Assembly (NCBI RefSeq): GCF_904846705.1
Contig: NZ_CAJHBS010000002.1
Span: 1-64,000, forward strand
Length of the DNA stretch: 64,000 bases
Direction: 5' to 3'
Origin: Psychrobacter sp. Pi2-52
Lineage (GTDB): Bacteria > Pseudomonadota > Gammaproteobacteria > Pseudomonadales > Moraxellaceae
Shown here: in pieces, positions 22-6,039 of the stretch
Numbering within the stretch: position 1 is the first letter of the stretch
Layout: each line of letters begins with the position of its first letter
Translations under genes and position numbers: made by a program
The notes under the pieces: model-generated
Seen by the model: the letters and a program-made list of their open reading frames with translations, nothing else
What the model was told of the DNA's origin: nothing
Databases searched by the model: none

Positions 22-101
22 TGCTTATTCTCCAGTTAGTGGATTATAAGCAGTTACACAGTTTTTAGGAAACTCCCTATATAACTGTTCTTTAAAATAA
101 G

Positions 102-126
102 AAGGTGGGCTTAGGCTCACCTTTTT
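102..126. terminator. Intrinsic terminator, probably of the three-gene cluster
   Basis: A nine-pair GC-containing stem (AAGGTGGGC against GGCTCACCTT, one wobble) with a four-base loop. It is followed by a T run on the plus strand and a weaker T-rich tail on the minus strand. It sits between the last gene of the leftward cluster and the next leftward gene. Confidence 0.7.
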
Positions 127-223: not shown

Positions 224-1018
224 TTATTTTTTGTGTTTAGAAATTTTGTATTTTAAAAGAAGTGATGGCCAGTTTTCATGTATTTCATCAATAACCTTTC
301 TATTGAGATACATTGTTTTAGCATGGTTTTGAACTTCTTGTAAACTCAACCATTCATATTTTTTTGTACCTAGTTTGAATTCTTTATTTTGAATAAGAGG
401 TGATACATCTTCCTCATATACTACATAGTACGAAGAGTAATTATATTGAGTCATTCTGCTAGATGTGGCAGAGTTCTTTTCTTCAACAAAGCAGAGTTCA
501 TCGATTTTTCTTAAGGTAATGGTGTGACTGGGTAAAGAAAGCTCGTATTCTATAAATCGAGATAGCTCCTCCATTGTGAAATCATGATTCAGCTTACAGT
601 AAGGAAGTAGGTAGCTTGACCATTCAATATCATCTGAAAAAAGTATTTTAGTATCTTTAGTACTATCTTCGTTATTAAAATCTTTTATTAATATGAATAA
701 TGCGACATTTCTAACTACGTTTAATGCTTCTTGATTAATTTCAGAAAGCACTGATTCTTTACTGTTTTTAGGCTTCTGAGACAACTCCCATATTATTAAA
801 AATATAAATATAATTATAGATAACATTAATAGCTTTTCAATCATAAAGCTTGATACATATGGACTAAAATCTTTGAATTTATCGACTGATATAAAAGTAA
901 CTATAAGAGCAATCAATATAGAAAATAGAGTCCATGTGTTTTTTATATGTTTTGGATAGTTCCTCTCGATAATTTCATTAAGCTTAGCGCTTTCTATGAT
1001 TATTCTTTTATATTTCAT
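224..1018 (-). CDS. Two-helix membrane protein with degenerate NUDIX-like domain (SMODS-associated NUDIX type)
   Basis: 264 aa. Residues about 25-45 and 60-78 are strongly hydrophobic and look like two transmembrane helices; the rest is predicted cytosolic. The C-terminal part has a W-S-S-Y-L-L-P segment, then S-x-x-S-S-R-M-T-Q-Y-x-Y and Y-E-W-L-S-L-Q-E-V with a final N-R-K-V. That pattern resembles the membrane-anchored SMODS-associated NUDIX domains described with nucleotide-signalling defence systems. No canonical Nudix box (GX5EX7REUXEEXGU) is visible, so it may bind rather than hydrolyse a nucleotide. Its start overlaps the stop of the ThiL-like gene by four bases (ATGA), indicating translational coupling. 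Codon and base use are clearly AT-richer than in the housekeeping genes to the right. The family assignment comes from recalled sequence patterns, not a search. Confidence 0.6.
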   Translation of the reverse strand: MKYKRIIIESAKLNEIIERNYPKHIKNTWTLFSILIALIVTFISVDKFKDFSPYVSSFMIEKLLMLSIIIFIFLIIWELSQKPKNSKESVLSEINQEALNVVRNVALFILIKDFNNEDSTKDTKILFSDDIEWSSYLLPYCKLNHDFTMEELSRFIEYELSLPSHTITLRKIDELCFVEEKNSATSSRMTQYNYSSYYVVYEEDVSPLIQNKEFKLGTKKYEWLSLQEVQNHAKTMYLNRKVIDEIHENWPSLLLKYKISKHKK

Positions 1019-2079
1019 ATCAAGACCGATGCAGTAGTTAGAATGTTATTTAGAAGATAGTTAGTATCGCCAGTACTAGAAATGAATGAGTCATTTTCGA
1101 ACCTCAAAGAGCATGAATACCTTTTAGTATTTTTGTGAAATTCTTTTATGTTACTAGATTTTTTTACCTTTCCTATAACCTTCAATTCATGGTTCTCAAC
1201 ACGTTTTCCTAATATCTTAAAATTTTCTTCAGATATAGTAAATATAGAGTTCCAATCGCCAACATAAAATGCAAAGTTCTCTAAAGGTATATTATGTGAT
1301 TTTGATAATTCTCTGGATTTCTCACTAAACGGTATAGAGTCTAAATAGATTTCGAATCCTAAGTTGTTTTCGATAAACATTTTTGAAAGTATATTACTTA
1401 ATCCGTCACTGTTATCCATTGAAGCAGAAAATAAACTAAGATTGCTGTTAACTACTTCACATTGATCTATAGCAAATCTTGGATAAGATACATAATTAGT
1501 TTCATGGAGTTCTAGTTCAAGGGATTTGAGAATCTTATAGTAAGAAGTAGCAAATTGACCAAATTGACCAGTGCATACTATAAGGTCTGAGGGATGAGAG
1601 CTATTTCTACTCAGGTAGTCTGAGCCTGTAATGATCCCATTAGCAGTACCCACAACTGAGATTTCATTACCTTTTTTAGTATCCCCCCCTAAAAAGGAAA
1701 TACCGTAATATTTACATGCTTCTTGAGCACCTTCAATAATATTTAAAACTTTTTGAGTTTGAATGTTAGCTGGTACAGTTATGGATATTAAAAATGATAG
1801 TCCTTTAGCACCTACAACCAATATATCACTTAAACTGCTTGTTACTGATAAGTAGCCCCAAGCTTTATAAGTATTAAGGTCATCATCAGATAATATTATA
1901 GGTGTTTGAGCTTTATCAATATTAGTTGCTAACAAAGTGTTATGATTTATTTTTAAGATACTTGAATCTTGATTAAGCCCATTAAGGAAATTTTTATCAT
2001 TTCCTCCTAAGATATCAAAAACTTTATCAAGAAATTTTTTCTCACCAACTGTACCTATCATCTGATTTCCGACATCCAT
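1015..2079 (-). CDS. ThiL/AIR-synthase-like ATP-dependent kinase
   Basis: 354 aa, of a size similar to ThiL and PurM family members. The N-terminal half shows the family's nucleotide-binding pattern: an early D-S-S, a T-N-I-D strand, L-S-D-I-x-x-V-G-A-K, G-G-D-T-K-K-G and S-R-N-S-S-H-P-S-D-L-I-V-C-T-G. The second half has M-D-N-S-D-G-L-S, matching the M-D-x-S-D-G-L of ThiL, but V-G-D-W-N-S-I-F replaces the usual G-G-E-D-Y-E-L-L. ThiL phosphorylates thiamine monophosphate. The altered motif and accessory setting suggest a different substrate here, which is inference. The start overlaps the radical SAM gene by 22 bases and the stop overlaps the membrane NUDIX gene by four. The genomic neighbourhood holds no thiamine gene, and the gene is AT-rich like its partners. 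Confidence 0.7.
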   Translation of the reverse strand: MDVGNQMIGTVGEKKFLDKVFDILGGNDKNFLNGLNQDSSILKINHNTLLATNIDKAQTPIILSDDDLNTYKAWGYLSVTSSLSDILVVGAKGLSFLISITVPANIQTQKVLNIIEGAQEACKYYGISFLGGDTKKGNEISVVGTANGIITGSDYLSRNSSHPSDLIVCTGQFGQFATSYYKILKSLELELHETNYVSYPRFAIDQCEVVNSNLSLFSASMDNSDGLSNILSKMFIENNLGFEIYLDSIPFSEKSRELSKSHNIPLENFAFYVGDWNSIFTISEENFKILGKRVENHELKVIGKVKKSSNIKEFHKNTKRYSCSLRFENDSFISSTGDTNYLLNNILTTASVLI

Positions 2080-2885
2080 ATTTTATTCCTATAGTGGGTT
2101 TCCTTTGATTCCCAAAAATTATTCCAACATTCTTCTATACTCTGCTCAAAACAGTTCCCTACGGAACTATAATCTTCACCTTGAGGTAAAAGTATATTTC
2201 CTGCATGGTCAATTAAGAAACAAGAGTCAATATCTTCGCTTTTAGAAGCATATATATTTAAATTAGGGAAAATAGGCCCCAGAGCCTGAACTGATTTGAT
2301 AAACTCCTCATTACTTATTTCATAAATATCTCTATTAATACTACCTTTCATCCTAGGTACAAATTGAAGAATTCTCCATACTTTTGGATTGAATTCAGAA
2401 ATGAATTCACCTATATTAATAATACTCTCGATATTTACACGTGAAAGTACGGTAGTTACCTTTAGTTTATGGGAGTGGGTAGTGCTAACCAGTTTGATGG
2501 AATCAACTACTTTATCAAAGTTTGACAACCTTCCTCTTATTCTTTCAAAATCTATATTGTTACCGGCATCTAATGAAATGCTAATACCTGATAGTTTATC
2601 TAAAACTCTTGATAATTTTTCTGGAAAGTGACCGTTTGTAGATACATAAACATTTTTTCCATCTTTAAGTAAAATGTCAATTATCTCAAAAATATCTGGA
2701 TTAACAAAAGGCTCTCCACCACATAATGTTACGTTAGCAATACTGCTAGTCGAAATTTGCTGAGCGATGCTTTTGAGGATATCTCTACTTTCACTTTCAG
2801 GGTAAGGCCCATAACAGAAGTCACATTTCAAGTTGCATTTCGACGTTACAAACCAGTCTATTGTTTCTGGTATATTCAATTGCAT
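2058..2885 (-). CDS. Small radical SAM enzyme, possibly viperin-like
   Basis: 275 aa. The [4Fe-4S]-binding CxxxCxxC motif is at C17, C21 and C24 (K-C-N-L-K-C-D-F-C-Y). G-G-E-P at about residues 56-59 and S-T-N-G at 82-85 contact S-adenosylmethionine in the family. A later stretch, W-R-I-L-Q-F-V-P followed by I-S-N-E-E-F and S-C-F-L-I-D-H-A-G-N, resembles the order of conserved blocks in viperin/ddhCTP synthases. Viperins usually have C-F-H rather than C-F-C-Y after the cluster motif, so this is at most a remote relative. No SPASM-type cysteine cluster is obvious, although two C-terminal cysteines are present. It is the first gene of the overlapping leftward cluster. An AAGG lies unusually close to the ATG. 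The substrate is unknown. Confidence 0.75.
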   Translation of the reverse strand: MQLNIPETIDWFVTSKCNLKCDFCYGPYPESESRDILKSIAQQISTSSIANVTLCGGEPFVNPDIFEIIDILLKDGKNVYVSTNGHFPEKLSRVLDKLSGISISLDAGNNIDFERIRGRLSNFDKVVDSIKLVSTTHSHKLKVTTVLSRVNIESIINIGEFISEFNPKVWRILQFVPRMKGSINRDIYEISNEEFIKSVQALGPIFPNLNIYASKSEDIDSCFLIDHAGNILLPQGEDYSSVGNCFEQSIEECWNNFWESKETHYRNKIWMSEIR

Positions 2886-3177: not shown

Positions 3178-4203
3178 TCAATCCCAACTTAAAATCACTT
3201 TACCGCATTGCCCACTTTCCATGATATCAAAGCCTTCTTGAAAGTCATCAATGTGCATGCGATGGGTAATGATAGGCGATAGATCAATACCGCTAATCAG
3301 CATTTGTTCCATCTGATACCACGTCTCCCACATCTCGCGCCCATAAATGCCTTTTAGGGTTAACGCCTTAAAAATAATCTTGCTCCAATCCACCGTGGTG
3401 GTGTTGGGTAAAATACCTAAGAGCGCGATTTTAGAGCCGTTATACATGTTAGTAATCATCGAATCAAAGGCTTGAGGCGAGCCTGACATCTCAAGCCCAA
3501 TATCAAAGCCGTGCATTTTTAACTGATCGATAGCACCTTCGATGGTTTCACCTTTGGCTGGGTTGATGATCATCGTCGCGCCCATTTTTTTGGCAAGCTC
3601 TAGGCGATAATCGCTGATATCACTGACCACGATATTACGTGCCCCTGCGAAGCGGCAAATCGCCGTTGCCATCGAACCAATCAGACCTGCACCTGTGATT
3701 AGCACATCTTCACCAAGGACAGGAAATGAAAGGGCAGTATGAGTAGCGTTGCCAAAGGGGTCCATAATGGCTGCCATCTCATCGCTGATACGCTCATCGA
3801 GCTTGATGACATTATCGGCAGGGATCACCAAATATTCGGCAAACGCGCCATCGCGGTCAACGCCCACGCCGATGGTGTTTTCGCACACATGTAGCTTGCC
3901 ACGGCGGCAGTTTCGGCAATGCCCGCAAGCGATATGGCCTTCGCCTGTGACGCGGTCGCCCACTTCAAAGTGCTTCACGCCATCGCCCATCTCGCTAATG
4001 ATACCGACGTATTCATGTCCGATGATCATCGGCGTCTTGATGGTTCTTTCTGACCACTCATCCCACTTATAAATGTGCAAATCTGTACCACAAATGGCGG
4101 TTTTTTTAATTTTAATTTTAACGTCATTGATGCCAACTGTAGGTTCTGGCATGTCTTGCATCCAGATGCCTTTTTTGGAATGGGCTTTAACCAGTGCTTT
4201 CAT
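3178..4203 (-). CDS. tdh: L-threonine 3-dehydrogenase
   Basis: 341 aa, the same length as the E. coli enzyme. It is a zinc medium-chain dehydrogenase that oxidises L-threonine to 2-amino-3-ketobutyrate with NAD+ in the cytosol. The catalytic-zinc region shows A-I-C-G-T-D and G-H-E-Y-V-G. The structural-zinc loop [15 protein letters not shown] is complete. The nucleotide-binding segment includes T-G-A-G-L-I-G. It lies 58 bases downstream of kbl, whose product cleaves its unstable product, so the two form the classical threonine-to-glycine operon with kbl first. Confidence 0.95.
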
Positions 4204-5835: not shown

Positions 5836-6039
5836 TTATTCATCTTTGGGACGCTGCTGAGCCTCAGCGATCAACTCATGAATCTTAGCGCTTTCTTTTA
5901 GCACACAAGCATCATAGGCAGAAAGTGGCTCAGGTTCTTGCTCCTCTTTCTTTTCCTGTTCGCTTTCTTGCTCTTGTTTGGCTTTTTCTTCTAGATATTT
6001 TTGTAGGTCGTCTTGTTCATCTTGTTGAGAGTTATTCAT
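5836..6039 (-). CDS. Small highly charged hypothetical protein
   Basis: 67 aa, preceded by a good AGGAG ribosome-binding site nine bases from the ATG. Residues about 5-40 are almost wholly D, E, Q and K, including runs such as Q-E-S-E-Q-E-K-K-E-E, and are probably a single charged helix or disordered. The C-terminal part, A-Y-D-A-C-V-L-K-E-S-A-K-I-H-E-L, looks helical with one cysteine. There is no signal peptide or membrane segment. It follows the amidase gene at about 29 bases and may be co-transcribed. I do not recognise a family. Confidence 0.6.
   Translation of the reverse strand: MNNSQQDEQDDLQKYLEEKAKQEQESEQEKKEEQEPEPLSAYDACVLKESAKIHELIAEAQQRPKDE

Follow-up and report, generated by a model that had tools for sequence, protein, structure and literature searches.

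The thmA-C genes of Photorhabdus asymbiotica, which encode a radical S-adenosylmethionine (SAM) enzyme together with a kinase and a triphosphatase of nucleosides, are reported to be sufficient for the production of 4'-thiothymidine in E. coli, with thmC alone conferring resistance (PMC12691670). Prokaryotic viperins (pVips), some of which lie beside kinases (PADLOC PDLC02903-02905), are likewise close to the locus considered here. This is a three-gene cassette encoding a viperin-related radical SAM enzyme, a ThiL-like probable kinase and a membrane protein, situated at the left end of a 64,000-nucleotide stretch of Psychrobacter sp. Pi2-52 (contig NZ_CAJHBS010000002.1, positions 1 to 64,000; hereafter the window). 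The pairing of a radical SAM enzyme with a kinase has precedents; new here is that the probable kinase is ThiL-like, no description of one paired with a viperin-like radical SAM enzyme having been found in the open-licence literature and search listings searched. The cassette is read, at a probability of roughly 0.47, as a patchily distributed unit making and activating a modified nucleoside or nucleotide, most likely for anti-phage defence.

Like thmA-C and the operons of two E. coli plasmids (L012 and L072), the cassette is a compact trio with the radical SAM gene first, the kinase gene second and a third gene next. It differs from them in its kinase, which is ThiL-like as compared to the P-loop deoxynucleoside kinase of L012, and in its third gene, which encodes a membrane protein lacking evidence of NUDIX; it also falls outside the thmA-C type of trio, in which genes for a radical SAM enzyme, an AbmG/dNK-type nucleoside kinase and a nucleoside triphosphatase adjoin one another. 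The viperin-like radical SAM fold and an adjacent kinase are shared with pVips, whereas the best trees place the window enzyme apart from the pVip clade (although the approximately unbiased (AU) test does not reject a joint clade), and the enzyme scores under the curated cut-off and differs at two conserved spots. A first-pass annotation had known of no established system of this composition, which holds for the exact trio as far as the literature search reached, although viperin with a kinase and thmA-C are close precedents.

The same annotation was right that three genes on one strand overlap one another (Table 1), that the first encodes a radical SAM enzyme (Pfam Radical_SAM, 4.5e-19) and the second a ThiL-like protein (Pfam AIRS, 1.9e-17; TIGR01379, 5e-38), and that the cassette is AT-rich, its G+C content being 31% as compared to 44% for window positions 3001-64000. 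Its assertion that the three must act together is backed by the overlaps and by the retention of the unit in two genomes, while the necessity goes further than these observations.

The PDB sequence matches of the radical SAM protein include viperins, viperin-like enzymes, SkfB, MoaA and BlsE. When an AlphaFold2 (AF2) model, built from three sequences with a predicted local distance difference test (pLDDT) score of 67.9, was submitted to Foldseek, viperin and viperin-like structures occupied ranks 1 to 4 and covered most of the length. The top matches in both sequence and fold are viperin-like proteins from Trichoderma virens (PDB 7n7i, 9dfn, 9dgw), but these share 17-21% identity in the fold alignment and, being fungal, offer no comparable operon. 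VIA-align of the same model placed pyruvate formate-lyase (PFL)-activase first (Z 17.1) with the viperins tied behind (Z 16.6 and lower); non-viperin PDB entries (PFL-activase, SuiB, BlsE) lie near the viperins in Z, and Z alone does not discriminate.

In a tree of 23 rows, the window protein forms a clade with its counterpart in a second Psychrobacter genome (G140) and a Nocardiopsis protein (support 96/95), and five pVips form another (98/97). In a 21-row tree, made after removal of SPASM_Macro_L014 and viral_L022, whose long branches met in the 23-row tree, the window, G140 and Nocardiopsis proteins group with actinobacterial radical SAM proteins and those of the E. coli kinase/NUDIX operons L012 and L072 (80/89), the five pVips standing apart (95/92); the comparison was made without the thmA sequence itself. 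The putative kinship with the radical SAM proteins of the E. coli operons thus has moderate support, from one of the two trees. An E. coli plasmid radical SAM protein, used as query against 369 genomes of the class, found the window gene as its sole match at E<=1e-20, and the window protein is 26-28% identical to the E. coli plasmid proteins. In the actinobacterial class, 26 of 296 genomes match at E<=1e-20, of which the Nocardiopsis genome and three others match over nearly the whole length; in the remaining 22, the match takes in about 160-180 residues of a longer frame, and these genomes were set aside except for two used in the trees.

The purpose assigned to the cassette is drawn from its site, which in related genomes lies between tdh and purL (these names, and ampD below, were assigned from sequence in this analysis). 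A tdh match at E<=1e-100 was obtained in 16 of 30 sampled genomes of the genus, the window's own included, and the tdh-side stretch was read in 12 of the other 15, G1252, G099 and G1227 being left out as tdh is near a contig end; a purL match lies inside 11 of these 12 stretches. AT-rich cargo linked to defence is present in 9 of the 12 relatives, in six by direct scan and in three by similarity to a scanned protein, and the cargo G+C content is 29-35% in the 10 relatives measured. It comprises RmrA with RmrT in G085 and G057 and without RmrT in G128 (the function of RmrA/RmrT was not found in a brief literature search), an HD-CE-domain protein of about 1030 residues in G051, G1221 and G080 (in the latter two by 55-71% identity, over part or whole), a ResIII helicase and a PDC-S71-like protein in G1229, TIR-like and Mrr_cat proteins in G1242, and a DUF6932/PDC-M63A protein in G1196. 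G1237, which was unscanned, holds a 126-residue frame and frames resembling a toxin-antitoxin pair, and the likewise unscanned G1201 ends at a contig edge. The three cassette proteins have no match in any of the 12 stretches; in G140, the cassette adjoins purL. The tdh-purL site of the genus is, on these family assignments, one that takes up defence-linked cargo. Since relatives fill the site of the cassette with such genes, anti-phage defence is its most likely purpose, and a defence role is favoured, not proved; the defence context proposed in the first-pass annotation has thereby gained indirect support.

Table 1. Features of the cassette and its surroundings (window positions)
Feature	Position	Strand	Remarks
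Radical SAM enzyme, viperin-related, 275 aa	2058..2885	-	First cassette gene; CxxxCxxC motif CNLKCDFC, residues 17-24
Probable kinase, ThiL-like (AIR-synthase superfamily), 354 aa	1015..2079	-	Second cassette gene
Membrane protein, 264 aa	224..1018	-	Third cassette gene; hydrophobic at ~25-49 and 54-83, then a ~180-aa domain
Radical SAM / ThiL-like overlap, 22 bases	2058..2079	-	
ThiL-like / membrane protein overlap, 4 bases	1015..1018	-	
tdh (threonine dehydrogenase)	3178..4203	-	Conserved in relatives, where it bounds the variable site on the right
Hairpin + T-run	78..126	+	Matched at 84-98% identity over 28-49 bases at the tdh-side locus of 8 of 12 relatives, next to purL or cargo genes

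Rightward of window position 5861, the backbone is collinear with that of G140 apart from insertions. The hairpin with its T-run was not picked up by the terminator scan. Pieces like the end of an ampD-like gene and its small neighbour precede the cassette in G140 (L063:15111-15635), a local duplication or rearrangement next to the insertion.

Kinase or NUDIX partners recur among the relatives of the radical SAM gene, though not invariably. In L012 and L072, the radical SAM gene is followed directly by genes for a deoxynucleoside kinase and a NudI-type NUDIX enzyme (nudI), the domains having been verified for L012; a near search of 5426 E. coli genomes for the L012 cassette returned 1, its own. 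The actinobacterial radical SAM gene of L060 overlaps a NUDIX hydrolase gene, two further actinobacterial relatives (L061 and L062) lie near TPR-type genes (the TPR domain being verified for one), and in the locus of a Nocardiopsis metagenome-assembled genome (L032) the radical SAM gene is followed, 76 bases downstream, by a frame that encodes the final portion of a PfkB domain. Among pVips, that of Sphaerospermopsis adjoins tmk and that of Anabaena a deoxynucleoside kinase gene. A further radical SAM match, in Klebsiella, is a MoaA-like gene beside moaC-E.

Some other neighbourhoods were recorded in the course of these searches. In L062:1512-5887 and in L061, the viperin-like radical SAM gene is near genes for a TPR protein, a protein resembling trypsin-like peptidases by eye and a small protein, the partner proteins of L062 having no PADLOC match. 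On a Treponema plasmid (L027:423-4786), a viperin-labelled gene follows nucleotidyltransferase-like, PPDK-domain and cysteine-desulfurase-like genes, an unusual viperin neighbourhood. A Rhizobium plasmid (L074:1-5636) carries two adjacent radical SAM genes and a pyrophosphatase gene with a dTMP kinase gene nearby, possibly a nucleotide-modifying set.

The nearest rival to the defence reading is a thmA-C-like nucleoside-antibiotic cluster, in which the radical SAM enzyme and the kinase would make an antibacterial nucleoside for secretion against competitors and the membrane protein would provide immunity or export. The order of radical SAM, kinase and third gene, common to the E. coli operons and thmA-C, agrees with it, and the structure matches include BlsE, from the blasticidin pathway. 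Both E. coli operons are, furthermore, on plasmids typed as conjugative and near toxin-antitoxin genes, with colicin immunity near one operon and lasso-peptide genes near another. A NUDIX gene for self-resistance is, however, missing from the cassette as far as the tests show, and the scanned cargo at the site in relatives belongs to defence-linked families and not to biosynthetic clusters; an antibiotic cluster is considered rather unlikely.

That the enzyme is a true pVip making 3'-deoxy-3',4'-didehydro-nucleoside triphosphates (ddhNTPs), served by an unusual kinase, is improbable. By its profile scores it is a viperin relative placed well below true prokaryotic viperin: its PADLOC pVip match is 119 bits (6.2e-35), as compared to 319 bits for a true pVip and 72 bits for a partial MoaA-like frame, and the NCBIfam viperin model (viperin_w_prok) gives 101.3 bits, under its 180-bit cut-off. 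The residue shortly before the CxxxCxxC motif is Asn in all four aligned pVips and Asp in all eight other rows, the window included, and an RGG close to the C-terminus, present in three of the four pVips, occurs in none of the eight other rows, the window protein among them; 12 of the 23 tree rows were aligned here, and the Asn and RGG were chosen as pVip marks from four pVips in this analysis. The PADLOC match and the viperin structures heading the Foldseek list nonetheless agree with a true pVip, as does the AU test, in which a clade of pVips and the window protein is not rejected (p 0.232). The AU test likewise does not reject a grouping that unites every viperin-like row (p 0.421).

The best NCBIfam models and the best PDB matches of the second protein are ThiL, with 130.8 bits for TIGR01379 (thiL; cut-off 184.15) and 132.1 bits for PRK05731.2-2 (cut-off 301). 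Homology to ThiL extends across most of the length, and most of the catalytic-motif residues are retained; in an alignment against nine housekeeping ThiLs (305-343 residues, as compared to 354), the aligned NID, SD, GGDT and SDG residues are conserved in both cassette copies, while the GDD motif is replaced by NQD, with Gln in place of the first Asp. The catalytic roles of these residues are presumably those known from ThiL structures. In contrast, the C-terminal and acceptor-side motifs are gone: GYQHF, found in 9/9 housekeeping ThiLs, is found in 0/2 cassette copies, and NIDKAQTP stands where ThiL has its TDTLV stretch. A separate ThiL is encoded elsewhere in the genome. A diverged ThiL is, by these matches, what occupies the kinase slot of the cassette, and we infer a phosphotransferase with a changed acceptor. 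A metabolic or cofactor operon, such as one for a thiamine-diphosphate analogue or for salvage, in which the kinase would act on a thiamine-like radical SAM product, is highly improbable, as ThiL is indeed the best named match of the kinase but its GYQHF and TDTLV motifs are lost, the radical SAM protein resembles viperin, and presence is patchy (2/105 genomes).

Hydrophobic stretches passing the cut-off in the third protein number two in the window copy and one in the G140 copy. An AF2 model built from two sequences has helices at 25-43 and 57-80, and its pLDDT of 47.1 is too poor for the fold to be judged. The NUDIX-like domain claimed for this protein in the first-pass annotation was not borne out, as no support for it was found in Pfam, NCBIfam, PADLOC, PHROGs or the PDB sequence search. 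Alignment with hhalign to seven NUDIX proteins (of eight candidates, L071 being omitted as its NUDIX box was missed by the pattern used) gave a probability of 0.1, as compared to 95.6-98.4 for each of the seven controls left out in turn, and 343 and 437 of 1000 shuffles scored on a NUDIX hidden Markov model as well as the two protein copies; these tests on the membrane protein used thin profiles of 2 rows. Pfam Sa_NUDIX had no match in 185 genomes of the class, control genomes included, and nothing is inferred from it. A NUDIX identity is supported by none of the sequence tests made; the protein may have a strongly degenerate NUDIX fold. The nucleotide-sensing role proposed for it in the first-pass annotation found neither support nor counter-evidence.

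The cassette is rare and patchily distributed. The trio has an identical gene order in G140, with protein identities of 69% for the radical SAM protein, 69% for the ThiL-like protein and 51% for the membrane protein. Between the two genomes, the ratio of nonsynonymous to synonymous substitution rates (dN/dS) is 0.15-0.17 for each of the three genes, which points to purifying selection, the values being rough (dS of 1.2-2.4 is near saturation, and a second method gave values for one gene only). The radical SAM profile matched 2 of 105 genomes of the genus at E<=1e-15 and 1 of 398 genomes of the phylum at E<=1e-18, namely the window's own. The membrane protein profile had a strong match only in its own genome among 369 of the class, five others giving weak matches (5.6e-4 to 0.0098) to short or stop-broken stretches. 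A narrow motif scan of the genome collection returned three loci, the G140 cassette, the Nocardiopsis locus and a Streptomyces stretch; the last was rejected, as no radical SAM protein was recognised among its frames of at least 120 residues and the profile had no match.

In the plasmid search, 27 records matched the radical SAM protein (20 listed) and 22 the ThiL-like protein, mostly thiL by annotation or placement, with no accession common to the two among the matches listed; the membrane protein had no match. The phage search gave three matches to the radical SAM protein, all partial. Relatives were absent from the viral contigs by patterns A1, A4 and A5 and by the motif scan, and a viral contig match of pattern A2, covering query residues 6-71 only in a 347-residue frame with a Cys-rich end, was rejected as not a true relative.

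In the proposed mechanism for defence, the viperin-related radical SAM enzyme would alter a nucleoside or nucleotide by hydrogen abstraction. The ThiL-like protein would then phosphorylate this product with ATP, as ThiL phosphorylates a phosphate monoester, and would take the part played by the deoxynucleoside kinase of the E. coli operons and by the nucleoside kinase of Photorhabdus. The membrane protein, by its position as third gene, may serve in self-protection, in export or as an effector, and the outcome would be a chain-terminating or otherwise toxic nucleotide directed against phages. The first-pass proposal of a modified nucleotide, made by the enzyme and phosphorylated by the kinase, is consistent with the viperin kinship, the kinase/NUDIX operons and thmA-C, which falls short of a demonstration.

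Several observations weigh against this mechanism and purpose. The 23-row tree leaves unresolved how the window protein is related to the rows of E. coli, actinobacteria and pVips, the 80/89 group appeared only once the two long rows were removed, and the joint clade with pVips stands in the AU test; as the wider radical SAM group is resolved in one of the two trees only, confidence in the defence reading is reduced. Neither a kinase nor a NUDIX gene is beside the plasmid radical SAM genes of Macrococcoides, Paraclostridium, Pseudobutyrivibrio, Thiodictyon and Methanomethylovorans in the stretches read, the last two carrying a viperin label. The exact trio is found only in two genomes of one genus, counter to the co-occurrence in distant genomes looked for in the first-pass annotation, and the two are not independent gains as they share a common neighbourhood. 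An ancient presence followed by losses in other genomes is no less possible than a recent transfer, because the DNA identity between the window and G140 is alike for the cassette (73%) and the backbone (68-78%). The window begins at contig base 1, and the contig end, 223 bases past the cassette, hides its left neighbour; the promoter-like count is no higher than in shuffles. As regards the site, the argument is one of guilt by association: no PADLOC family matches the HD-CE proteins, the PDC families are candidates only, G142 has no AT-rich cargo, and G1237 and G1201, two of the 12 relatives, were outside the cargo scan. The product, the enzyme activities and the effect on phages are predictions from sequence.

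A bolder form of the defence reading, held to be unlikely, is a new anti-phage chemistry in which a viperin-sister enzyme would act on a nucleotide other than CTP, a ThiL-like kinase derived from thiamine metabolism would activate the product, and a protein of new fold with two transmembrane segments would sense or discharge it at the membrane, the system being modular with exchangeable kinases (P-loop, perhaps PfkB, and ThiL-like). If the reading of the cassette is true, viperin-like nucleotide poisons would be broader than ddhNTPs and would pair with unrelated kinase folds, and one chemistry would serve both antibiotics and anti-phage defence. The three-gene size of the cassette permits its transfer to laboratory E. 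coli, which makes the connection of nucleoside antibiotics with viperin immunity directly testable.

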